Positions 5,462 to 43,415 of a stretch of DNA of 43,415 nt are shown in pieces. The notes below the pieces were generated by a model. The model saw nothing but the letters and a program-made list of their open reading frames with translations, was not told where the DNA came from and made no database searches. Position 1 is the first letter of the stretch; every line of letters begins with the position of its first letter. The stretch lies in the NCBI GenBank assembly GCA_025352965.1, contig JANXRP010000159.1, positions 1 through 43,415 on the forward strand, written 5' to 3'. The DNA is from Comamonadaceae bacterium (GTDB lineage Bacteria; Pseudomonadota; Gammaproteobacteria; Burkholderiales; Burkholderiaceae_C). The position numbers and the translations under genes were made by a program.

Positions 5462-6406
5462 TCAGTCCATTAAAAATTGGGTCACTAAATCGTGCTGGTC
5501 TTTGGCTACAAAAGTGGGGGCGTGCCCTACACCTACAAACTCAACTAGGCGAGCGGGTACAGGCATTTTGTGGCCACGCTTTGTCATCGCTTTGGCTGTA
5601 GCTGCTGATAGCAAATCGGACTCTTGGCCGCGTGTAATCAAGGTTTTTGCCGTGATGTGCTCGTAGAGTTGCCACATCATGGCTTCGCCCGCAGCGGTAG
5701 TTTCGCGGCTAGCCGTTTTAAACAGCGTTGCGATGGCGGGATCGTACGCCAAGGTGAATTTGCCATCTGCACATTTTTTCATTTGATGTTTGGATAGCTC
5801 CAGCCACTGCGCCGTCGTATGTGGACCAAAGCTGGAAGCCAACACCCACATGGCATCCGCACCTTGTTGCTCGGTTTCAAAAATACCAACACCCGGCGCA
5901 TGCCGCCCCAAATAGGCACCTATGCGAACCAAAGACGACCACTCAATCACGGGACCCACATCGTTTAAAACCAAATGGCGCGGAACCACTGGCAAGGCGA
6001 TGTCACCAAGGCCCACTGAGCCTAAAACGGCCATGCCAATCAAGCCGCCCATGCTGGTGCCGACCCAATCCAATGTTTCATAAGAGCTAGCGCTGTGCAA
6101 AGCTGTCAAAAACACCATCATGTCCTGCGCGTAATTGGGGATCGCATAAGTCATAGGGTCATCCGACCAATCGCTCATACCGCGTCCAATAATGTCCACA
6201 CAAATCACACGGACCGATTCACCTTTGCTGGAAGCCTTATCCAGTATGGCCTCTGCAAGCACATCAAAGTCACGGCCTTGGCGCGTCAAACCATGCACGC
6301 ACACGACCAAATGCTTAGCCGCAGGGTCGCCCCAGCTCCAATAGCCCATCTTTTTATTGCCACGATGCACAAGTGGGAAATACTCAAGCGTGGGTTGGGT
6401 TGACAT
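5462..6406 (-). CDS. Alpha/beta-fold hydrolase
   Basis: This is a 314-residue alpha/beta hydrolase. The oxyanion-hole strand VVCVHGLTRQGRDFD is at 34-48. The nucleophile elbow GTSMGG places the serine at 118. The C-terminal GVGHAPTF places the catalytic histidine at 295. VICVDIIGRGMSDW (67-80) resembles the lid-preceding region of C-C hydrolases and lactone esterases. There is no signal peptide, so it is cytoplasmic. It begins 2 bp after the stop of the upstream hydrolase and is followed 17 bp later by the Bug receptor; the three look like one transcription unit. The substrate is unknown. Confidence 0.85.
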   Translation of the reverse strand: MSTQPTLEYFPLVHRGNKKMGYWSWGDPAAKHLVVCVHGLTRQGRDFDVLAEAILDKASSKGESVRVICVDIIGRGMSDWSDDPMTYAIPNYAQDMMVFLTALHSASSYETLDWVGTSMGGLIGMAVLGSVGLGDIALPVVPRHLVLNDVGPVIEWSSLVRIGAYLGRHAPGVGIFETEQQGADAMWVLASSFGPHTTAQWLELSKHQMKKCADGKFTLAYDPAIATLFKTASRETTAAGEAMMWQLYEHITAKTLITRGQESDLLSAATAKAMTKRGHKMPVPARLVEFVGVGHAPTFVAKDQHDLVTQFLMD

Positions 6407-32801: not shown

Positions 32802-33917
32802 TTAGCTAAAAACCAATCGGAATGTGGAGCCCACCCCGATAGCACTGTCTATTGCAAGCGTTGCACCATGCCGCTGTGCGACGTGCTTGACGATAGCTAA
32901 ACCCAGACCCGTTCCTGCTGTTTCGCCCAACTCCCGAATACGGCTTTTGTCCACGCGGTAAAAACGCTCAGTCAGCCTTGGTAAGTGCTCTGGCGCAATG
33001 CCAAGACCTGTATCAGTAACCGTGAGCACATCTTGCCGCCACTGCACGTGAACAGTACCGCCATTAGGTGTGTAACGCACCGCATTGGTAATGAGGTTAG
33101 AAAACGCACTTTGCAACTCGCTGGCCGAGCCAAGCCTATCTGTATCAGGCGCGATATCAAATGTGATGGTGATGTCCCGCTTTAATGTGGCCGCCAATGT
33201 ACGCGCCTCGCGCTCGCATTGCCCCAATATGCTTTGAATATCCACACGTTCAAGCAACGGTTTCGCCTGCGCATCCAACTTGGATAGTGTGAGCAAATCT
33301 GCCACCAAAGCGCCAAGTCGCTGGCTTTGCGTAGACATTAATTGCAGATAGTGTTTTTGCTCTTCTGCACTGAGATCCAGTGTTTGCAGTGTTTCGATAA
33401 AGCCCGACAAAACTGTCAGCGGTGTGCGAATTTCATGTGACACGTTGGCCACAAAATCACGCCGCATTTGCTCAGCACGCTCCACGTCCGTCACATCACG
33501 CACCAAGAGCAGCGCACGGCCAAGACCATACGAATGCAATTGCAAGGCTTTGTTATCGAAACGCAGCTCATACTCAAAGTGCTCTTGTGATAAATACTCT
33601 AGAAATTGCGGCATGCGTACAAGGTGCGCGATGTGCTGCGCAATATCCCGCGTGGCATCGAGTCCCAGCAAACGTGCCGCTGTTTGATTGCACCATTCAA
33701 TGCGGCGTTCGCTATCCAAAATCACCACGCCATTAGGCGAAGCTTGCAGCGCAGACAAAAAGGCTTGCAGGCGCTGTTCATGTGTTTGGCTGTTTTGGCG
33801 TTCAGCTTTGAGCTGCCTTTGAAATTGAATCTTCAGTCGCTGTTCGCGTTTATGCATCCAAAAAACGGACACGCATACGGCCACCAACAAACCGACAAAC
33901 AAAACCGAAGAGTTCAT
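32802..33917 (-). CDS. phoR: PhoR phosphate-regulon histidine kinase
   Basis: This is a 371-residue kinase from ATG 33917, which overlaps the phoB stop by one base; a GTG at 33920 in GTGA overlap is equally possible. One N-terminal membrane helix (about 3-21) is followed by a basic linker, a PAS domain (about 50-145), HisKA with H161 in ANVSHEIRTPLTVL, and an ATPase domain with LITNAVRYTPNGG and GTGLGLAIVKH. There is no periplasmic sensor domain, in keeping with control through PstSCAB and PhoU. It is last in the leftward pst-pho run. Confidence 0.93.
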   Translation of the reverse strand: MNSSVLFVGLLVAVCVSVFWMHKREQRLKIQFQRQLKAERQNSQTHEQRLQAFLSALQASPNGVVILDSERRIEWCNQTAARLLGLDATRDIAQHIAHLVRMPQFLEYLSQEHFEYELRFDNKALQLHSYGLGRALLLVRDVTDVERAEQMRRDFVANVSHEIRTPLTVLSGFIETLQTLDLSAEEQKHYLQLMSTQSQRLGALVADLLTLSKLDAQAKPLLERVDIQSILGQCEREARTLAATLKRDITITFDIAPDTDRLGSASELQSAFSNLITNAVRYTPNGGTVHVQWRQDVLTVTDTGLGIAPEHLPRLTERFYRVDKSRIRELGETAGTGLGLAIVKHVAQRHGATLAIDSAIGVGSTFRLVFS

Positions 33918-34624
33918 CACAGCGCAGACTTAGAGAGTCGGTAGCCCATACCCCGTATGGTCTCTACCTGTGCCGACGCTGCTGGAGACACCGCTGTTAA
34001 AGCTTCACGAAGACGCTTGATGTGTACATCCACCGTGCGCTCGTCAATATCGCTGTAATGCCCCCAGACCATATTCTGCAAGGTCTCGCGTTTGAGCACT
34101 TTGTCACCTTGCTGCAAGAGCGCGTTGAGCAGTTTGAATTCAGTTGGCGCGAGTTTGACATCTTTGCCCTCAGCCGTCACGCGATGTGCCACGCTATCCA
34201 GCGAGATCACCCCCACGGTCAGTGTTGATCCAGACACCACCACATCAGGTGCACGGCGACGAAGCACAGCCCGCACACGAGCCAAAAGCTCTTTCGTAGA
34301 AAACGGTTTTGTCATGTAATCATCAATCCCAACATCTAGACCAGCCACTTTGTCCGCCTCTTCAGCTCTAGCTGTCAGCATGATGATGGGAAGTAACTTG
34401 GTTTCGATTTGGCTGCGCCACTGCTTCGCCAGCGAAAAACCGCTCATGGTGGGCAGCATCCAATCTAAAAGCACCAAGTCTGGCAAGCGTTCAAACACCA
34501 TGCTTTGCGCCTGGGCACTGTCAACGGCAACCTCACACTCAAAGCCCGAGTGACGCAGGTTAATCGCGACCAGCTCGGCAATCGCTGCCTCGTCTTCCAC
34601 AATCAGGATGTATGGTTTTTTCAT
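33917..34624 (-). CDS. phoB: PhoB phosphate-regulon response regulator
   Basis: This is a 235-residue OmpR/PhoB-family regulator. D54 (LLDWMLP) is the phospho-acceptor, with acidic ED at 10-11, T in IIMLTAR and K in MTKPF. The C-terminal winged helix has LAPTEFKLLNALL, ending in ETIRGMGYRL. It binds Pho boxes under phosphate starvation; one such box lies ahead of pstS in this window. It starts 15 bp after phoU, with phoR directly coupled downstream. Confidence 0.95.
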   Translation of the reverse strand: MKKPYILIVEDEAAIAELVAINLRHSGFECEVAVDSAQAQSMVFERLPDLVLLDWMLPTMSGFSLAKQWRSQIETKLLPIIMLTARAEEADKVAGLDVGIDDYMTKPFSTKELLARVRAVLRRRAPDVVVSGSTLTVGVISLDSVAHRVTAEGKDVKLAPTEFKLLNALLQQGDKVLKRETLQNMVWGHYSDIDERTVDVHIKRLREALTAVSPAASAQVETIRGMGYRLSKSAL

Positions 34625-34639
34625 CAGTGTTTAAAAAAA

Positions 34640-35338
34640 TTATTTAACAGCTGTTTCAATTTCTTCCATGCTGGAGTGCCGCACATCCGCGCCTTTGACA
34701 ATGTAGATCACGCACTCGGCAATGTTTTTAGCATGGTCACCAATGCGTTCGATCGCCTTGGCGATGAAGAGTAAATCAAGACTGGCGCTAATCGTGCGCG
34801 GATCTTCCATCATGTAGGTAATGAGGCGGCGCACAAAGCCATTGAACTCTTGGTCAATCAAATCGTCCTCACGCAAGATGCTCACGCAATCTGCGGCATC
34901 CAATCTTGCAAAAGCATTCAACGCCTTGCGCAATTGCTTGGCTGCTAAATCAGAAGCAATACGCAAATCGCCTGATGGCAACCGAAGCGTCGCACCTGCC
35001 TTGCAAATCGATTGCACCATTCGTGCCATGCGCTCGGCTTCGTCACCCACGCGCTCTAAGTTGGCAGTGGTGCGTGAGATCGCCATGAGTAAGCGCAAAT
35101 CCCGCGCTGTGGGCTGTCTACGGGCAATGATGCTTGAGAGTTCGCGGTCAATGTCCACCTCAAATTGATTGACCGCCTCTTCAGCTTCAATCACCTTGTA
35201 GGCCACGTCCGCATTCATCATGGCCAAGGCCTCAATGGCAAGGCGAATTTGTGCTTCAACTAAGCCGCCCATTTCCAGCACTCGGCTAGAAACTGCACGC
35301 AACTCCGTATCAAATTGTGTTGAGATATGTTTATCCAT
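34640..35338 (-). CDS. phoU: PhoU phosphate signalling protein
   Basis: This is a 232-residue all-helical protein built of two PhoU repeats. ISTQFDTELRAV opens the first; the metal-binding helix motifs are seen as RVGDEAERMARM and RIGDHAKNIAECVIYI. It links PstSCAB transport to PhoR inhibition when phosphate is ample. It sits 14 bp after pstB and 15 bp before phoB. Length is normal. Confidence 0.95.
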   Translation of the reverse strand: MDKHISTQFDTELRAVSSRVLEMGGLVEAQIRLAIEALAMMNADVAYKVIEAEEAVNQFEVDIDRELSSIIARRQPTARDLRLLMAISRTTANLERVGDEAERMARMVQSICKAGATLRLPSGDLRIASDLAAKQLRKALNAFARLDAADCVSILREDDLIDQEFNGFVRRLITYMMEDPRTISASLDLLFIAKAIERIGDHAKNIAECVIYIVKGADVRHSSMEEIETAVK

Positions 35339-35352
35339 GCTGTACCCCTTGT

Positions 35353-36135
<783 letters not shown>

Positions 36136-36146
36136 TTTTTAATCCA

Positions 36147-36977
36147 TTATTTGACGCGAGTGATCCAGCGTGCCAGCACATTTAAGGTCAGCACAAACAT
36201 CGTGATGATGAACACGCCTGCCCACGCCAGCTTTTGCCAGTTCTCATAGGGGCTCATGGCAAATTTAAAAATTGTGACAGGCAAACTGGCCATCGGCTGC
36301 GTGATGTCGCTACTCCAAAACTGATTAGAAAGTGCCGTAAAGAGCAGCGGCGCAGTCTCGCCCGCAATACGCGCTACTGCCAGCAGTACACCCGTCAGCA
36401 CACCAGAGCGCGCGGCGCGTAGCGTGATGGTGAGAATCACCCGCCACTGCGGCGTGCCCAGCGCGTAAGCCGCTTCGCGCAAGGCGTTGGGGACTAAGCG
36501 CAGCATGTTCTCAGTGGTGCGAATGACCACGGGAATCACAATCAAAGCTAAAGCCAAGACACCTGCAATCGCAGAGAAGCTTTTGAATCTGGCCACCACT
36601 AACGTGTAAATAAAAAGACCAATCACGATGGACGGTGCAGACAGCAAGATGTCGTTGACAAAGCGTGTGATCGAACCCAGCCAAGTCTTCTCACCAAACT
36701 CAGCCAGATAGATGCCTGCAAAAATACCAATCGGTGTACCTACAAATGTGGCCAGCAAAACCATTAAGCCCGAGCCATAAATCGCATTAGCAAGACCGCC
36801 TTCGTCATTGGGCGCAGGTGTCATTTGCGTAAAGGCAGCAATCGACAAGCCACTGATACCTTGGCGCACAATTTCCCACAAAATCCATGCCAAAAAGAAA
36901 AGTCCAAAAGCCATAGCCGACAAAGACAAAGTGAGCGCCAAACGATTCACCCATTGGCGTTTTTCGTACTTGGTCAT
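36147..36977 (-). CDS. pstA: PstA phosphate ABC transporter permease
   Basis: This is a 276-residue permease with six membrane helices. The EAA-like coupling loop [20 protein letters not shown] is near 165-185. It pairs with PstC to form the phosphate channel. Its ATG overlaps the pstC stop (ATGA), so translation is coupled. Confidence 0.96.
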
Positions 36978-37918
36978 GATGCCTTCCCTTCACTCTTTTT
37001 AAGCTGTGCGAGTAACAATTTAGAAATTGCTAGTACCACGGTGGTAATTGCAAACAACACAAGCCCAAGGTAAATGAGTGAGGCCTGATGAAGTCCTTCG
37101 CCCGCTTCGGCAAATTCGTTGGCGAGCGCCGAGGTAATGGAATTCGCAGCCTCAAAAAAACTAGCGGAATTCAATTGGTTGGTATTGCCAATTACAAACG
37201 TGACTGCCATCGTCTCGCCCAGCGCACGACCTAGGCCTAGCATCACGCCGCCCATCACGCCCGTTTTGGTGTATGGCAGCACGACCTTGGAGACCACTTC
37301 CCACGTCGTTGAACCTAGTCCATAAGCCGACTCTTTAAGCAGTGCAGGGGTCACTTCAAACACATCGCGCATCACTGACGCGATAAACGGAATCACCATG
37401 ATGGCCAAAACGACGCCAGCGGAAAAAATGCCGATGCCGACAGGAGGTCCCGATACCAAGTTCGCAAGGCTTGCCAACATGGGCACGCCAGAGAATAGCT
37501 TCTGCAAGGGCTGCTGGACATAGCTTGCGAGCACGGGACCCAGCACAAGCAATCCCCACATGCCATAGACGATAGAAGGAATCGCGGCCAAAAGCTCAAT
37601 CGCCGTACCCAATGGACGCTTGAGCCACGCGGGCGCTAGCTCAGTCAAAAATACCGCAATGCCAAAGCTAACAGGCACGGCAATCAACAGCGCAATGATG
37701 CTGGTGGCAAGCGTGCCATAAATCATCACCAAACCGCCGTAGTTGTTTTGGACAGGATCCCACACAGGATTGATAAAAAAGTGCCAACCAAACTGATGGA
37801 TAGCAGGCCATGCACCCGCCAAGAGCGAGAGCAAAATGCCCACCAGCATGGACAGTGTCAGCACCGCTGCGCTTTTAGCCGTGAGCGCAAACAATTGGTC
37901 AGCCAAACGCATCTTCAT
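36974..37918 (-). CDS. pstC: PstC phosphate ABC transporter permease
   Basis: This is a 314-residue permease from the ATG at 37918, five bases after the pstS stop; a TTG at 37942 inside pstS is rejected. It shows six to seven membrane helices, with [15 protein letters not shown] and the coupling loop [20 protein letters not shown]. It forms the membrane channel with PstA. The ribosome-binding site is weak, so expression may depend on coupling with pstS. Confidence 0.95.
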
Positions 37919-37923
37919 ACTAC

Positions 37924-38946
37924 TTACTTGATTTGAGCCCAAGACTTTTCAATCAAAGTCTTCACGCCAGCAGGCATAGGAACATAGTCTAAGTCTTCTG
38001 CTGTTTTGTCGCCACCTTTAAAGGCCCACGAGACAAACTTCAGCACCGATTGCGACTTCGCCATGTTGTCGCTCTTGGCTTGCATGAGCAAGAACGTCGC
38101 ACCCGAAAGCGGCCAAGCTTCTTTGCCTGCTTGATTAGTCAATATTTGGTAGAAAGATTTATTCCACTCTGCGTTAGCCGCTGCCGCTTTAAAGGTCAAG
38201 TCATCGGGCGCTGGATAGTTGCCTGCTGCGTTTTGCACAAGGGCATAGGCCATTTTGTTTTGCTTCACATAGGCGTACTCCACATAGCCAATGCTATTGG
38301 GCAAACGCGCCACAAATGCAGCCACGCCTTCGTTGCCCTTACCACCTGCGCCTGTTGGCCAATTCACTGCTGTGCCCTCGCCTACTTTGTCCTTCCACTC
38401 TTTATTTACTTTAGAGAGGTAATTCGTAAAGATGAAGCTTGTACCCGAGCCATCCGCACGACGCACCACCGAGATCGGGTTGGTTGGCAATGCCAGCTTG
38501 GGATTTAAAGCCTTGATCGCCTTGTCGTCCCACATCGTAATTTTGCCAAGGTAAATATCGCCTAGTACTTGACCTGTGAGCTTGAGTTGACCCGCCGCAA
38601 TGCCCTTGATGCTGACCACAGGTACCACACCGCCAATCACTGTCGGGAATTGAATCAAACCTTTGGCTTTTAAATCTTCGTCTTTAAGCGGCATATCGGA
38701 TGCGCCAAAGTCCACGGTCTTTGCTTCGATTTGTTTGAGACCAGCACCCGAGCCCACGGATTGGTAGTTCACCTTCGTGCCCGTCTCTTTGTTGTAATCA
38801 GCCGCCCACTTGGCATAAAGCGGAGCAGGGAAGCTAGCCCCTGCGCCCACAACGTCTTGCGCCTGAACCATAAACGTGCTCGCCAAGCCAAGCACCATAA
38901 GGCTTGCAGCAAGACCAGTTTTGAGAATTTGTGCCTTATTTTTCAT
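37924..38946 (-). CDS. pstS: PstS periplasmic phosphate-binding protein
   Basis: This is a 340-residue receptor. A signal peptide is cleaved near VQA-Q (about residue 29). Phosphate-site segments [31 protein letters not shown] and [12 protein letters not shown] are all present. It captures phosphate for PstCAB. It is first in the pst-pho run and is preceded by a Pho box about 65 bp upstream of its ATG. Confidence 0.97.
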
Positions 38947-39011
38947 TTTTTATCCTTTAGTTGGATTAGTTATCAACGTGAGCACATGCCCACGAACCCT
39001 AATGTAAAAAA

Positions 39012-39033
39012 GCTTTATGACAGTTGTGTGACA
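39012..39033 (-). promoter_or_regulatory. Pho box upstream of pstS
   Basis: On the minus strand, TGTCACACAAC is followed directly by TGTCATAAAGC, an 11-bp direct repeat close to the known PhoB consensus half-site CTGTCAT plus four bases. A third TGTCA lies nine bases further upstream (39038-39042). A -10-like TACATT (39001-39006) follows after five bases. The box sits between divergent pstS and ppx and faces pstS. Confidence 0.8.
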
Positions 39034-39065
39034 TTTCTGACAAACTAACTGGACAATAAGCCTCC

Positions 39066-40553
39066 ATGCAAGACAACACTCAACTCGCCGCCATCGACCT
39101 TGGATCTAACAGCTTTCGTTTAGAAATTGGCAGATTTGAACACGAACAGCTCCAGCGTGTGGAGTACATCAAAGAGACGATTCGCCAAGGCAACGGCCTC
39201 GACAAAGATCGCAATCTCTCGACGGACGCGATGCAACGTGGCTGGGATTGTTTAGCGCGGTTTTCCGAGCGACTGACGGACTTCAAGAAAAAGCAAGTTC
39301 GCGTAGTCGCTACGCAAACGCTGCGCGAAGCACGCAACCGCGATGTCTTTTTGACTAAAGGACAAGAGATTCTGGGATTCCCGATTGATGTGGTTTCTGG
39401 CAAAGAGGAAGCTAGGCTAATTTATTTGGGGGTGTCGCATTTGTTGCCGCAATCCTCTGAGCGTCGTTTGGTCATTGACATTGGTGGCCGATCGACAGAA
39501 CTCATTCTCGGTCAAGGCTATATGGCGCAAACGATGGAGTCTTACCGCGTTGGTAGTGTGACATGGTCTATGAAATACTTTGCTGATGGTGAGGTTTCTA
39601 AGGAGGCATTTCGCCAAGCGGAAGTTGCCGCCAAAGCAGTGCTGGACGAGGCTCTTAGCATGTACACCAAACAGCATTGGGATAACGTGTACGGTTCGTC
39701 GGGCACAGTAGGGGCGATAAGCGACATCTTGGTGGGTTTGGGCTATGCGGCGCACGAAATCAGCCGCACGGGCTTACTGCATATTAAAGAGATTTTGCAA
39801 AAATCTGGGCGGATAGATCGTGTGCGATTAGAAGGCTTGAGGGATGACAGGCGTGCTGTGCTATGCGGTGGCCTTGCTGTGCTATCCGCACTTTTTGAGT
39901 TGCTTGACATTGACACTTTGCTCGTGGCGGATGGCGCTCTGCGTCAAGGCGTACTCTACGACATGGTGGAGCGCGGATGGAGCGCCACCGATGTGCGCAG
40001 CAACACGGTGACACGTATGATTAGCACATTCAAAATCGATCCTGTACAAGCCCAGCGTGTAACGAAAGTGGCGCACATGCTGTTTGATCAAATCATGTCC
40101 AAGCAAGACATGGCCACGTTCGACAGCTTAAATCGTAAGCTCGGTTGGGCGGCGCAACTGCATGAAATTGGAAGTCATATTTCGCATAGCGATTATCACA
40201 AACATGGCGCGTACATTTTAGAAAATGTGGACGCGATCGGTTTTGCACAGCATGAGCTGCATCGCCTTGGATTGCTGGTTTTAGGGCACAAAGGTAAACT
40301 CAAAAAATTAGGTGAGCACCTATCAGATAGCAATTTTGCCTGTCAATTGCTGACACTCAGGCTTGCAGTCATTGCTTGCCATGCAAGAGCCAATTCCGAC
40401 TGGTCTGCTGTGCGGCTGAATATCAAAAACAATAGCTTAACGTTGCAAGTACCCAGCAATTGGGCGCAGCTCTATCCGCAATCGGTTCATTTACTCAAAC
40501 AAGAAGTAGAAGCTTGGCAAAAATCACCTTGGTTGTTTCAATTAAAAATTTAA
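39066..40553 (+). CDS. ppx: Exopolyphosphatase Ppx
   Basis: This is a 495-residue Ppx/GppA-family protein. AAIDLGSNSFRLEIG at the N-terminus is the phosphate-1 loop of the ASKHA fold, GKEEARLIYLGV carries the catalytic-region glutamate, and LVIDIGGRSTELILG is the second phosphate loop. A C-terminal HD-like helical domain (from about 305) has KLGWAAQLHEIGSHISHSDYH. It removes terminal phosphate from polyphosphate; GppA activity on pppGpp is also possible. It diverges from pstS with 119 bp between and has no clear Shine-Dalgarno. Confidence 0.9.
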   Translation: MQDNTQLAAIDLGSNSFRLEIGRFEHEQLQRVEYIKETIRQGNGLDKDRNLSTDAMQRGWDCLARFSERLTDFKKKQVRVVATQTLREARNRDVFLTKGQEILGFPIDVVSGKEEARLIYLGVSHLLPQSSERRLVIDIGGRSTELILGQGYMAQTMESYRVGSVTWSMKYFADGEVSKEAFRQAEVAAKAVLDEALSMYTKQHWDNVYGSSGTVGAISDILVGLGYAAHEISRTGLLHIKEILQKSGRIDRVRLEGLRDDRRAVLCGGLAVLSALFELLDIDTLLVADGALRQGVLYDMVERGWSATDVRSNTVTRMISTFKIDPVQAQRVTKVAHMLFDQIMSKQDMATFDSLNRKLGWAAQLHEIGSHISHSDYHKHGAYILENVDAIGFAQHELHRLGLLVLGHKGKLKKLGEHLSDSNFACQLLTLRLAVIACHARANSDWSAVRLNIKNNSLTLQVPSNWAQLYPQSVHLLKQEVEAWQKSPWLFQLKI

Positions 40554-40562
40554 ATTAAATAC

Positions 40563-40578
40563 GTATACGGTATATACT
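40563..40578 (+). promoter_or_regulatory. Promoter -10 with overlapping palindromes ahead of the Lys-rich protein gene
   Basis: The stretch holds GTATAC (40563-40568) and GTATATAC (40570-40577), two adjacent palindromes, around the -10-like TATACT (40573-40578). TTTAAA at 40549-40554 is a possible -35 with an 18-bp spacer. The gene downstream encodes a ribbon-helix-helix-like protein, so this may be its own operator; that is inference. Confidence 0.45.
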
Positions 40579-40606
40579 GTTTTCTTATTTTATTTTTAGG
40601 AACCCT

Positions 40607-40951
40607 ATGAACGCCAAATTACCTGTCAAAAAAACACCTCCTGTGAAAGCACCAATTGCAGCTAAAAAAGTTATTGCACCTGCCCTTGTGAAAGTCAGAC
40701 TGGAAAAGGTTTTGAAGCCTGCGAAACCAAAATTGGTACGTGATAGCTTTACGATTCCTAAGGATGAATATCAAGTGCTAGTGGACTTAAAGGCGCGCAT
40801 GACCAAGCTGATGCAACCTGCAAAAAAGAGTGAGTTACTACGCGCTGGTTTGAAAGCACTGGCAACCATGTCAGACGCGATGATCAAAAAATCCTTGTTG
40901 GCTGTGCCATCCATCAAAACAGGACGTCCTGCCAAAATTGTTAAAAAGTAA
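40607..40951 (+). CDS. Lys-rich ribbon-helix-helix-like protein, unrecognised
   Basis: This is a 114-residue basic protein containing 23 lysines. Residues 1-43 are a Lys/Pro/Ala/Val-rich tail (11 lysines, with KKTPPVKAP and KPAKPK) like a histone H1-type tail. Residues 44-92 read as a short strand RDSFTIP and two helices, EYQVLVDLKARM and KKSELLRAGLKALATM, the layout of a ribbon-helix-helix DNA-binding dimer. The end has TGRPAKIVKK, with a GRP core like an AT-hook. AGGAA precedes the ATG. It lies between ppx and sixA-ppk, so it may bind DNA, polyphosphate or both. Its function is unknown. Confidence 0.75.
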   Translation: MNAKLPVKKTPPVKAPIAAKKVIAPALVKVRLEKVLKPAKPKLVRDSFTIPKDEYQVLVDLKARMTKLMQPAKKSELLRAGLKALATMSDAMIKKSLLAVPSIKTGRPAKIVKK

Positions 40952-41413
40952 TTAGAGCAACTCGGGGGTTTGCACGGTGACGACCACGGTCTCACCTACC
41001 CCCGCTCGTTCGCGATACCGCAGCCACCAAACAGCGCCTTTTTTAAGATTAATCTCTTGTGTGGGCAAACCTAGAAGCTGCGCAATCGCTTTGCCTAGCA
41101 GTGGTTGATGTCCTATCACCAAAGCAGTTGATTTTTGAGATGGCCAGTGAATGATTTTTAGTAAATCTTCTGGCGTTCCAGTTGGCGCAAGTTCTTTTCG
41201 GATTTTGTACTTTCGATCCAAGGCAATCGCTGTTTGCACCGTACGCAGCGCAGGACTGACCCAAATTCTCGTCGCTTCCGGCATTTGGCGATTCAGCCAT
41301 GCCGCCATTCGCGTGGCTTGTTTTTCGCCTTTGGATGTCAAAGGTCGATCCAAATCTAGGCCATCATCAACTAGCTCTTTGGCCTCAGCGTGACGCCAAA
41401 AAATAATATCCAT
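40952..41413 (-). CDS. sixA: SixA-type phosphohistidine phosphatase
   Basis: This is a 153-residue histidine phosphatase of the RHG superfamily. The catalytic histidine is H8 in WRHAEAK; the second histidine is in ALVIGHQPLLG, with RPLTSKGEKQA and SPALRTVQTA in between. SixA removes phosphate from phosphohistidine in proteins (ArcB and the PTS-Ntr in E. coli). Its ATG overlaps the ppk stop by one base (TGATG), so it is coupled to a kinase that works through a phosphohistidine. Its stop codon directly abuts that of the convergent Lys-rich gene. Confidence 0.88.
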   Translation of the reverse strand: MDIIFWRHAEAKELVDDGLDLDRPLTSKGEKQATRMAAWLNRQMPEATRIWVSPALRTVQTAIALDRKYKIRKELAPTGTPEDLLKIIHWPSQKSTALVIGHQPLLGKAIAQLLGLPTQEINLKKGAVWWLRYRERAGVGETVVVTVQTPELL

Positions 41414-43415
41414 CAGGGGGGTGCTCCCAAGCCAGCTTTTGCATAACGCAGCATCAGTGCATGTTGGACACTGTGCCTTGCTTGCGCCGCTGGCAAAGCC
41501 TTACCCAGTAATGCATAGTGACCATCTGGACACAGAATCCATGCATCTTTGGTGTCCAACAAATATGCCACGAGCGACTCATCAATAATGCGCTGACGGG
41601 TTTCTGAATCCAGCACGGGCCAAGCAACTTCCACACGGCGCAGCATATTTCGGTTCATGAGATCGGCGCTCGCTAGGTAAAGATCCTCTTGCTTACCTGA
41701 ACGGAAATAAAAAACCCGTGAATGCTCTAAAAAACGTCCAATGATGGAGCGCACGCGGATGTTATCGGTATAGCCCGCCACTTGCGCAGGCAAGATACAA
41801 GCGCCGCGCACAATCAAATCAATCTGAACCCCCTGAGAACCAGCATGGATTAAGGCCTTTGCCAACATCTCATCCGTTAAGGCGTTCATTTTGAGCACAA
41901 TACGCCCTTTATGACCTGCGGTGGCGGCACGCCCTGTGGCAGCAATCAAAGCCAGTAATTTATCGTGCAGATGAAACGGTGCAACCCACAATTTTTTGAG
42001 CTTAGGCAACCGTGTTTGACTGGCCAAATGCACAAACACCGCCTGCATATCGCTAGTGATGTCCACATCTGCCGTGAGATAGCTCATGTCCGTGTAGAGC
42101 TTGGCCGTGCGCGAGTTGTAATTACCCGTGGATAAATGTCCGTAGCGACGCAACACACGCCCTTCTTTGCGCGTGAGCAAGAGCATCTTGCAATGCGTCT
42201 TCAGCCCAACGACACCGTACACCACCTGCGCACCAATTGACTCTAGGGCTTCAGCCCAATTGATATTGGCCTCCTCGTCAAAGCGCGCTTTAAGCTCCAC
42301 CACAGCCAACACCTCTTTGCCGCGCAGTACCGCTTCGCGTAGTAACTCCATCATCTCCGACTCGGCGCCTGTACGATAAATCGTGAGCCGAATCGACAAC
42401 ACCGCTGGATCGTTCACGCCCTCGCGCAGTAAGGCTAGCACAGCCTCGAAACTTTCAAATGGTTGATGAATCAGGATGTTCTTCTCGCGCATTTGCGCCA
42501 TGACGCTGCGTTGCGCATCTAAGCTGCGCGGCCACACAGGCTTATAGGGTGCGAAGAGCAGTTTTTGTTTGGCAACCAAATCAATCAACTGGGTAAATCG
42601 GCTCAAATTGACAGGGCCATGTACGGTGTAAAGCGCCTCCTCGGGTAGCTCAAACTGGGTGAGTAAAAACTGCGAGAGAAAAGGCGAGCAGCCCGAGGAA
42701 ACCTCTAGCCGCACCGCTTGTCCGTAGTTACGGTGCTGCAAACTTTGCCGTAGCGCCGTGCGGAGGTCACGCACATCTTCTTCATCAACGGCTAACTCAG
42801 AATTTCTAGTGATGCGGAACTGTGAAAACTCAGACGGTTCGCGTCCAGGAAAAATATCTGTGAGATGCGCCCGAATCACGCTTGAAAGCGACACTACCAC
42901 TTGGCCTCTGCCGTCTTTGTAGGCAAGCTTATCTGGCAACAAAATCAAGCGCGGCAGGGCGCGTGGCACTTTCACAATCGCAATGACGTTTTCACGACCA
43001 AATGCATCTTTGCCTTTGAGCTTGACGATGAAGTTCAGTGATTTATTAGCTACCTGCGGAAACGGGTGCGCGGGATCTAAGCCCACGGGCACCAGCAAAG
43101 GCTTCACCGCGCGCTCGAAGTAATCTTTGACCCAGCGCCGCTGCTGCACATTGCGCTCGCCATGTGAGAGCACGTGAATGCCTTGCCCATCTAATGCAGG
43201 CATGATGTGATCGTTGAACACCTTGTACTGTTTTGCCACTAAAGCATGTGCAGCTTTAGACAATGCTTGAAAATGATGTGTGGCAGCCGAGTCATCACGC
43301 CCTGATTGCTTGCTAGCAGCATGATGCTGCTCCATTCGCACCTCAAAAAACTCATCTAAATTAGAGGCAACAATACATAAAAATTTAAGCCGCTCTAGCA
43401 AAGGGTAATCTTCAC
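41413..43415 (-). CDS. ppk: Polyphosphate kinase Ppk, 5' end outside window
   Basis: About 667 codons are visible. The frame stays open to the right edge with EDYPLLERLKFLCIVASNLDEF, so some 20-30 N-terminal residues are missing; a TTG at 43401 is internal, not a start. The catalytic histidine sits in RRYGHLSTGNYNSRTAKLYT (codon at 42136-42138) and is the one autophosphorylated in Ppk1 enzymes. RSIIGRFLEHSRVFYF and LYLASADLMNRNM are further catalytic-domain motifs. It makes polyphosphate from ATP. sixA is coupled downstream. Confidence 0.96.
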   Translation of the reverse strand, partial: EDYPLLERLKFLCIVASNLDEFFEVRMEQHHAASKQSGRDDSAATHHFQALSKAAHALVAKQYKVFNDHIMPALDGQGIHVLSHGERNVQQRRWVKDYFERAVKPLLVPVGLDPAHPFPQVANKSLNFIVKLKGKDAFGRENVIAIVKVPRALPRLILLPDKLAYKDGRGQVVVSLSSVIRAHLTDIFPGREPSEFSQFRITRNSELAVDEEDVRDLRTALRQSLQHRNYGQAVRLEVSSGCSPFLSQFLLTQFELPEEALYTVHGPVNLSRFTQLIDLVAKQKLLFAPYKPVWPRSLDAQRSVMAQMREKNILIHQPFESFEAVLALLREGVNDPAVLSIRLTIYRTGAESEMMELLREAVLRGKEVLAVVELKARFDEEANINWAEALESIGAQVVYGVVGLKTHCKMLLLTRKEGRVLRRYGHLSTGNYNSRTAKLYTDMSYLTADVDITSDMQAVFVHLASQTRLPKLKKLWVAPFHLHDKLLALIAATGRAATAGHKGRIVLKMNALTDEMLAKALIHAGSQGVQIDLIVRGACILPAQVAGYTDNIRVRSIIGRFLEHSRVFYFRSGKQEDLYLASADLMNRNMLRRVEVAWPVLDSETRQRIIDESLVAYLLDTKDAWILCPDGHYALLGKALPAAQARHSVQHALMLRYAKAGLGAPP

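Follow-up and report, generated by a model that had tools for sequence, protein, structure and literature searches.

The window analysed here, a 43,415-nucleotide stretch of DNA from a Comamonadaceae bacterium (contig JANXRP010000159.1), closes with a phosphate/polyphosphate region of 9.5 kb. On the minus strand of this region lie phoB-, phoU-, pstB-, pstA-, pstC- and pstS-like genes, which were named from their translations, while ppx, sixA and ppk were scanned for domains. From 33917 to 43413 the PhoB-, PhoU-, Pst-, Ppx- and PPK1-type genes form one unbroken block. The ppx gene for a Ppx/GppA exopolyphosphatase occupies positions 39066–40553 on the plus strand. On the minus strand follow a sixA-type histidine phosphatase gene (40952–41413), which stayed under the NCBIfam SixA cut-off, and ppk1 for polyphosphate kinase 1 (41413–43413), whose 5′ end lies past the edge of the window. 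An earlier note on this DNA had drawn attention to a protein with 23 lysines encoded between ppx and sixA-ppk. The open reading frame list, the genome search, composition and codon comparison confirmed its gene at 40607–40951 on the plus strand, stop codon included, in a convergent arrangement in which its stop codon abuts that of the sixA-type gene. An AGGA sequence at 40598–40601 of the plus strand, read by eye, is the probable ribosome-binding site.

The deduced protein has 114 residues, a pI of 10.7 and a net charge of about +20. Its lysine fraction of 0.202 is the highest among the 60 six-frame open reading frames of at least 100 codons in the window, the runner-up having 0.103. No Pfam family matched it at E values up to 1, and the one NCBIfam match (E 0.062) was at chance level. 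A genome search returned the gene as a single copy. Compared with its relative in L002, it differs by 19 synonymous and 10 non-synonymous codons, with 25 changes at third and 4 at second positions; for L099, the most distant of the five relatives compared, 28 codons of each kind were counted. Synonymous changes predominate between close relatives and the core has been preserved in many families, on which grounds we regard the reading frame as a real gene; by the same codon counts it is under purifying selection.

Members of the family share a common layout, namely an N-terminal Lys/Ala/Pro tail, a core of about 65 residues with the features of a ribbon-helix-helix (RHH) domain and a C-terminal KTGRP motif. 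In the window protein, composition and low model confidence delimit a tail of residues 1–38 (40607–40720, plus strand; 9 K, 6 P, 6 A and 6 V), which is presumably disordered and is short for the family (median 79 residues, range 14–153 in 105 loci). Distant relatives mostly have shorter and less lysine-rich tails, as judged by eye. The KTGRP motif was located by the core alignments at residues 104–108 (40916–40930, plus strand). Each of its five residues reaches at least 90% in an alignment of 52 sequences, and just G and R do so in a broader core alignment of 72 members. The AT-hook-like end that had been proposed for this protein stands as a conserved motif in the 52 sequences and is a putative AT hook at most, Pfam AT_hook giving a weak match in one of the 52 members (E 0.097).

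To judge by our genome surveys, the RHH family is found mainly in Burkholderiales. A search with the single sequence detected the gene in 24 of 60 related genomes, its own included, and left 36 without it. A profile of the 52 cores (A1) detected it in 96 of 399 genomes from the order, representing 49 of 165 genera, and in 9 of 370 genomes from the class, leaving 303 and 361 genomes, respectively, without it. Since many genomes do without the gene, it is not needed for polyphosphate (polyP) as such. One set of loci was fetched with peptide patterns from the window protein, so that close relatives are over-represented in it, and the tree of homologues, based on about 75 columns and midpoint-rooted, carries a wrong label (f1) for L099 from Methylophilus. 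Two or three RHH genes per genome occur in part of family f21 (G602, G728 and G682). G602 has one of them beside parA and CHAD genes (L159) and the other beside pst-phoU genes (L160). The homologue in L177 was considered as a fusion and rejected, the long open frame that runs into the gene looking unrelated by eye.

An RHH core had been called probable for the window protein, and profile-profile comparison supported this assignment. The 72-sequence core (A3) aligned by hhalign with 17 RHH_1 proteins at an E value of 4e-7 and a probability of 92.8, the best of 20 column shuffles reaching 0.047. Against 9 ParD proteins the values were 1.7e-4 and 49.4, with 0.011 as the best of 20 shuffles. Both reference sets (17 of 20 RHH_1 and 9 of 10 ParD matches) exclude contig-edge or weakest matches. 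In this register, alignments, the core model and hhalign place a putative β-strand at KLVRDSFTI, residues 42–50 (40730–40756), models place helix A at residues 52–67 (40760–40807), models and hhalign place helix B at residues 74–87 (40826–40867), and models add a short third helix at residues 90–99 (40874–40903), all on the plus strand. Seven core positions are invariant in the 52 sequences. R45, S47 and T49 (R7, S9 and T11 of the core) each reach at least 90% there, and of the three the arginine alone does so among the 72. In CopG-like proteins, bases are contacted by every other residue of the strand, and in this register R-x-S-x-T would fall on these positions.

Searches of family, sequence and structure collections gave weaker signals. 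The NCBIfam ParD-type RHH antitoxin family matched 15 of the 72 members at E up to 0.1 (best 3.2e-5), Pfam RHH_1 matched 5 at E up to 1 (best 0.005) and Pfam ParD matched 3 (best 8e-4). Pfam HNH_repeat also matched 3 members and, with 1.1e-4, gave a better single E value than RHH_1 or ParD. A search of PDB sequences with A1 returned nothing below E 0.8; with A3, ParD antitoxin chains appeared among the top rows at E 0.09–0.22, amid unrelated chains. PHROGs gave weak matches only, the commonest being an antitoxin family (3 of 72 members). The single-chain model of the core (pLDDT 88, pTM 0.64) consists of an extended segment and helices at core positions 15–30, 37–50 and 53–61. DSSP marked no strand in it, and a strand would form in the dimer only. 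The structural matches of this model were weak (2k5j with Z 4.3, rmsd 3.7 and 49 aligned residues; 6gyg with 3.9, 6.9 and 55; 3h87_C with 3.1, 2.0 and 44). They include the plasmid regulator Reg576 and an antitoxin, both RHH proteins, and three of the ten Foldseek rows, all at E values of at least 2.2, are presumably RHH or RHH-like. Unrelated proteins fell into the same range, as 8p03_L (Z 3.2) did and as did the ribosomal chains that VIA-align ranked among the RHH matches. The core model found nothing under E 0.09 in BFVD, and the model of all 114 residues (pTM 0.43) yielded nothing usable from the PDB (best E 5.6, best Z 3.2). The weak similarity to the ParD family might suggest the antitoxin of a ParD-like toxin–antitoxin pair. 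We consider this hardly credible: in the window the gene is flanked by ppx and sixA-ppk and not by a toxin gene, and no toxin was seen in neighbour clusters present in at least 3 of 60 loci from outside the window's family, whose representatives were read by eye.

Motif, matrix and unit searches located an operator between ppx and the RHH gene, at 40565–40582 on the plus strand. It is made of two tandem palindromic 9-bp units of the form AWACNGTWT, ATACGGTAT and ATACTGTTT, both of them perfect, and ends 24 bp before the start codon. The motif was first noticed in translated upstream DNA and tested afterwards. Of 165 loci, a number that includes at least 10 fetched twice from the same place, 124 had a 16-mer consensus with up to three mismatches close to the start; 20 mononucleotide shuffles gave 0.25 on average. 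A matrix of 36 columns (38 bits), centred on the 27-bp near-palindrome AAACGGTATAAACTGTTTATACCGTTT, scored higher in 145 of the 165 loci than in any of 800 control windows, although this matrix shares sites with its test set. For a held-out test, we used a matrix trained on the window's family (95 loci, a few of them titled as other taxa), and 44 of 60 loci from other families still exceeded all 800 controls. The 20 of the 165 loci that remained below the control maximum with the former matrix include most of the distant members. Among plasmids, 14 records contained a match to the protein; 11 of these were opened and one was added from another query, and 10 of the resulting 12 stretches scored above the control maximum. 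That the operator is built of tandem palindromic units of 9 bp is evident from an autocorrelation peak at lag 9. Pairs of neighbouring units with no more than one mismatch were present in 110 of the 165 loci and runs of at least three units in 88, each compared with none of the 800 control windows; at least four were present in 14 loci, while the window has two.

Genome-wide searches covered 14 genomes, 13 with the RHH gene and one (G191) without a match in the class survey. Nine of the 13 contained a site with at most one mismatch, in all nine at the RHH promoter, and four had no such site; one genome had one additional site of this quality. Sites with two mismatches occurred at the level of a reversed-pattern control. 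In its own genome, the window operator is the sole site with no or one mismatch to the 16-base pattern, and one further site has two mismatches. Within the window it is present at the promoter of the RHH gene only, and hence the protein seems to control only itself there. A PhoB box or a bare promoter as the source of the motif is disfavoured, since the operator is near-unique per genome at this stringency and forms arrays on a plasmid; the Pho-box consensus was used in this weighing. The motif and the protein family travel together across neighbourhoods and families, which is a mark of autoregulation. Specific DNA binding by the RHH protein is strongly implied by this pattern, and it is highly probable that the protein is a specific DNA autoregulator.

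Several further operator-like sites were observed. In Methylophilus and family f190, they lie about 320–370 bp ahead of ppx (L144:5719, score 13.1; L145:5658, 17.2; L099:794, 11.1), where the ppx reading frames start from 6080, 6027 and 1150, respectively. The site in L144 precedes an 89-codon reading frame without Pfam match that leads into ppx. A weak site (8.7) precedes ppx in L173. The positions in the former lineages suggest that the RHH protein may control ppx there. Together with the operator itself, these sites speak for an ordinary specific transcription factor of phosphate and polyP genes, whose tail would merely raise DNA affinity and which would make no contact with polyP. On the other hand, the good site is the gene's own promoter in nine genomes, including that of the window, with one exception in one genome. 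At a stringency of no or one mismatch, there is consequently almost no regulon, and a transcription factor of this kind appears rather unlikely to us.

Strong copies were also seen at two other places. At L159:7030 a palindromic copy (23.2 and 22.1) stands directly before the gene of a Nudix hydrolase; parA and the RHH gene are close by, and a CYTH-CHAD-like gene lies on the opposite side. In L150 a second copy (5858–5899) lies more than 3 kb from the RHH gene, and CHAD, ParA and sixA genes are found together about 4–6 kb to the other side. A matrix site at the start of pstS in L026 (16.1) was rejected as an operator and taken as chance, for it lacks palindromic symmetry and has no counterpart in the window.

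The earlier note had named linkage with ppk or ppx in relatives as a check on its proposal, and this linkage proved strong. The window protein served to fetch 80 loci, each with flanks of up to 4 kb. Of these, 75 had ppk, 66 ppx, 76 either of the two and 77 sixA, and three loci had none of these genes; for the most part this linkage is a single gene order passed on by descent. Among 60 loci outside the family, 24 had a ppk, ppx, sixA, PPK2 or CHAD gene no farther than about 9 kb away, compared with 1 of 40 random regions (Fisher 1e-5), and the numbers rose to 26 and 2 when pst and phoU were counted too (Fisher 2e-5), both Fisher values treating loci as independent. The 60 loci had been hand-chosen from profile matches to cover families, about half of them already viewed with flanks of 1.5 kb, 12 stretches were shortened by contig ends, and the ParA, PPK2 and CHAD baits were drawn from loci under test. 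The controls, each 18 kb long, were drawn from 11 of these genomes. Where proteins were checked against Pfam (L155, L174, L175 and L317), the PPK2 and CHAD assignments were borne out.

Gene orders vary among these loci and include ppx-RHH-sixA-ppk, PPK2-sixA-RHH-ppk, RHH-phoU-ppx, ppk-ppx-sixA-RHH and pstS-RHH with ppk farther on. Plasmid copies lie beside CHAD in Caballeronia, beside phoU in Paraburkholderia and between CHAD and ppk1-pstS in Cupriavidus. Three of the 12 plasmid stretches thus matched polyP or phosphate baits and two matched ParA; the remaining ones gave no match to a polyP bait. One more plasmid neighbour, without Pfam match, is annotated as ‘phosphate transport regulator’, and a copy on a Comamonas plasmid adjoins arsenic genes. 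No polyP gene appeared in 36 of the 60 stretches, among them every locus of families f5 (four loci), f14, f16, f176, f199, f208 and f209. In family f8 (L170, L171 and L182) a gene resembling Acetyltransf_5 (GNAT) lies one or two genes downstream, the domain being confirmed in L171 only. The lack of linkage in many families would agree with a general nucleoid protein whose place by ppk and ppx is inherited synteny without function. The several polyP gene orders and the plasmid copies beside CHAD, phoU and ppk1 argue against this explanation, which we hold to be very improbable, and a functional tie of the RHH protein to polyP is likely.

A short gene for a ParA/MinD-type ATPase lies within 1 kb of the RHH gene in 12 of the 60 loci outside the family, and one anywhere in the stretch was found in 14, compared with 1 of 40 controls (Fisher 0.004, again with loci taken as independent). 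In L099, L144, L145, L152 and L159, parA is divergent from the RHH gene and the operator lies between the two. More distant relatives have parA and RHH genes paired on the same strand; one such pair, on a plasmid of Piscirickettsia, has four operator units in between. On plasmid5 of Calothrix (L316:2911–4261), 26 units in five arrays surround divergent parA and RHH genes; these arrays may form the centromere of a partition system of the RHH type. The earlier note had mentioned neither the operator nor the links to ParA, CHAD and PPK2. The pairings with parA favour a partition-type partner of a ParA ATPase that would position polyP granules, or the chromosome, by ATP-driven movement. Several observations make this improbable as a general explanation. 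ParA and polyP genes are both present in just 5 of the 60 loci, and seven of the 12 close pairs (L188, L190, L194, L195, L198, L199 and L201) are weaker-matching members, none of which has the operator by matrix. In the window, no parA adjoins the RHH gene. ParA as a general partner in this lineage was rejected, a related ParA being present in 17 of 24 relatives with the RHH gene and in 24 of 36 without it, that is, with no association. The related ParA gene of this genome adjoins a gene that we take to be purM.

The closest known arrangement of repeats and ATPase is that of omega/ParB of pSM19035, an RHH protein whose binding sites are tandem 7-bp repeats in its own promoters, at least four of them being required to activate ParA (PMC9499535). 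The family described here shares with it the RHH character, tandem short repeats at the own promoter and a ParA partner in some relatives, and the arrays of 3–6 units in one plasmid relative resemble the omega system. However, the omega units are 7 bp long and non-palindromic, whereas those of the RHH family are palindromic, 9 bp long and mostly present in 2–3 copies on chromosomes, which is below the four of omega; an H1-like tail and linkage to polyP likewise set the family apart. Conceivably, a plasmid-partition module became a storage-polymer partition system. The H1-like tail would make polyP granules the cargo of a ParB-like RHH protein, the centromere would have shrunk to an operator of 2–3 units as a read-out of free protein, and some lineages (Methylophilus, family f190, some of f5 and f21) would have kept a divergent ParA under the same operator for ATP-driven spacing of granules. 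We offer this scenario as a speculation that is doubtful at present, the missing operator in the seven weaker-matching members with parA counting against it. If true, it would bear on whether the placement of polyP granules uses energy, a point left open in a 2025 review (PMC13052382).

Pfam domains of the PhaR type (PhaR/PHB_acc) were detected neither in the window protein (E up to 1) nor in the domain matches listed for the core members. The logic proposed below is nevertheless that of PhaR, an autorepressor that binds its target DNA and PHB (PMC3570403). PhaR also represses the phasin gene, whereas no second target of the RHH protein was seen in the window lineage, and the polymer would here be polyP instead of PHB. 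AlgP of Pseudomonas aeruginosa is an H1-like, DNA-binding protein that is located on polyP granules and is proposed as a tether between granule and nucleoid (PMC9239181). A similar Lys/Pro/Ala tail, disordered in AlgP, characterizes the window family. By layout, AlgP consists of a helical N-domain of 124 residues and a C-terminal tail of KPAA repeats; here the tail is N-terminal and joined to an RHH-like core, and the RHH gene lies in polyP clusters with a specific operator. The earlier note had pointed to PhaM of Ralstonia, whose histone-like DNA-binding part places storage granules on the nucleoid (PMC13052382). The analogy holds for a histone-like granule protein that binds DNA; compared by description only, PhaM serves PHB and not polyP, and AlgP, PhaR and the RHH partition proteins are closer. 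CHAD-domain proteins bind polyP and are often encoded in polyP gene clusters (PMC6537752); in several loci a CHAD gene lies close to the RHH gene, although by Pfam the two proteins are unrelated.

The precedent of AlgP, in whose absence granules are fewer and larger (PMC9239181), raises the question of a plain tether. Its tail would hold polyP, its RHH core and KTGRP would hold DNA, and autoregulation would be housekeeping without any sensing. The mean tail composition in fetched loci with tails of at least 20 residues (K 18%, A 28%, P 14%) is in line with such a role. Yet a non-specific tether needs neither the strand triad nor an operator kept across many families, and we therefore regard a plain tether as unlikely.

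The reading we prefer, with a probability of about 0.5, is that of a dimeric RHH autoregulator of the polyP system that is titrated by polyP through its tail and ties granules to the nucleoid. The RHH protein would dimerize and repress its own promoter. As polyP accumulates, the polyanion would bind the lysine-rich tail and pull the dimer off the operator, and this release would raise synthesis of the RHH protein in step with polyP, much as PHB acts with PhaR. Dimers bound to granules might still hold DNA, whereby granules would be tied to the nucleoid in the way proposed for AlgP. A divergent parA that shares the operator with the RHH gene may contribute active spacing through its ATPase. The sequences themselves carry the RHH-like core with R-x-S-x-T, the upstream operator in most members of the main family, the recurrent linkage to polyP genes and, in the main family, the H1-like tail with KTGRP. 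Both functions had been suggested for this protein before: sensing of polyP through competition with DNA fits the operator evidence, and a tether of polyP to the nucleoid is possible.

In the open-licence literature, we found no work that joins ribbon-helix-helix, polyphosphate and granule for such a protein, and none was encountered in open-licence polyP papers on AlgP, PhaM, CHAD, ParA or the granule proteome. The family, for which no description was found, thus provides a candidate for an H1-tailed granule and nucleoid protein built on an RHH autoregulator. In the table of the 2025 review, AlgP is the sole entry for polyP granules and ATP dependence is given as unknown (PMC13052382). The family touches on how bacteria measure polyphosphate and position its granules. 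Its window member is without a Pfam match at E up to 1, and the core profile gave only weak RHH-like matches, in NCBIfam and PDB. A compact operator accompanies it within polyP clusters, and in some lineages a ParA gene lies under a common operator. If the proposed reading is true, polyphosphate, nucleoid and plasmid partition would be linked in one protein family.
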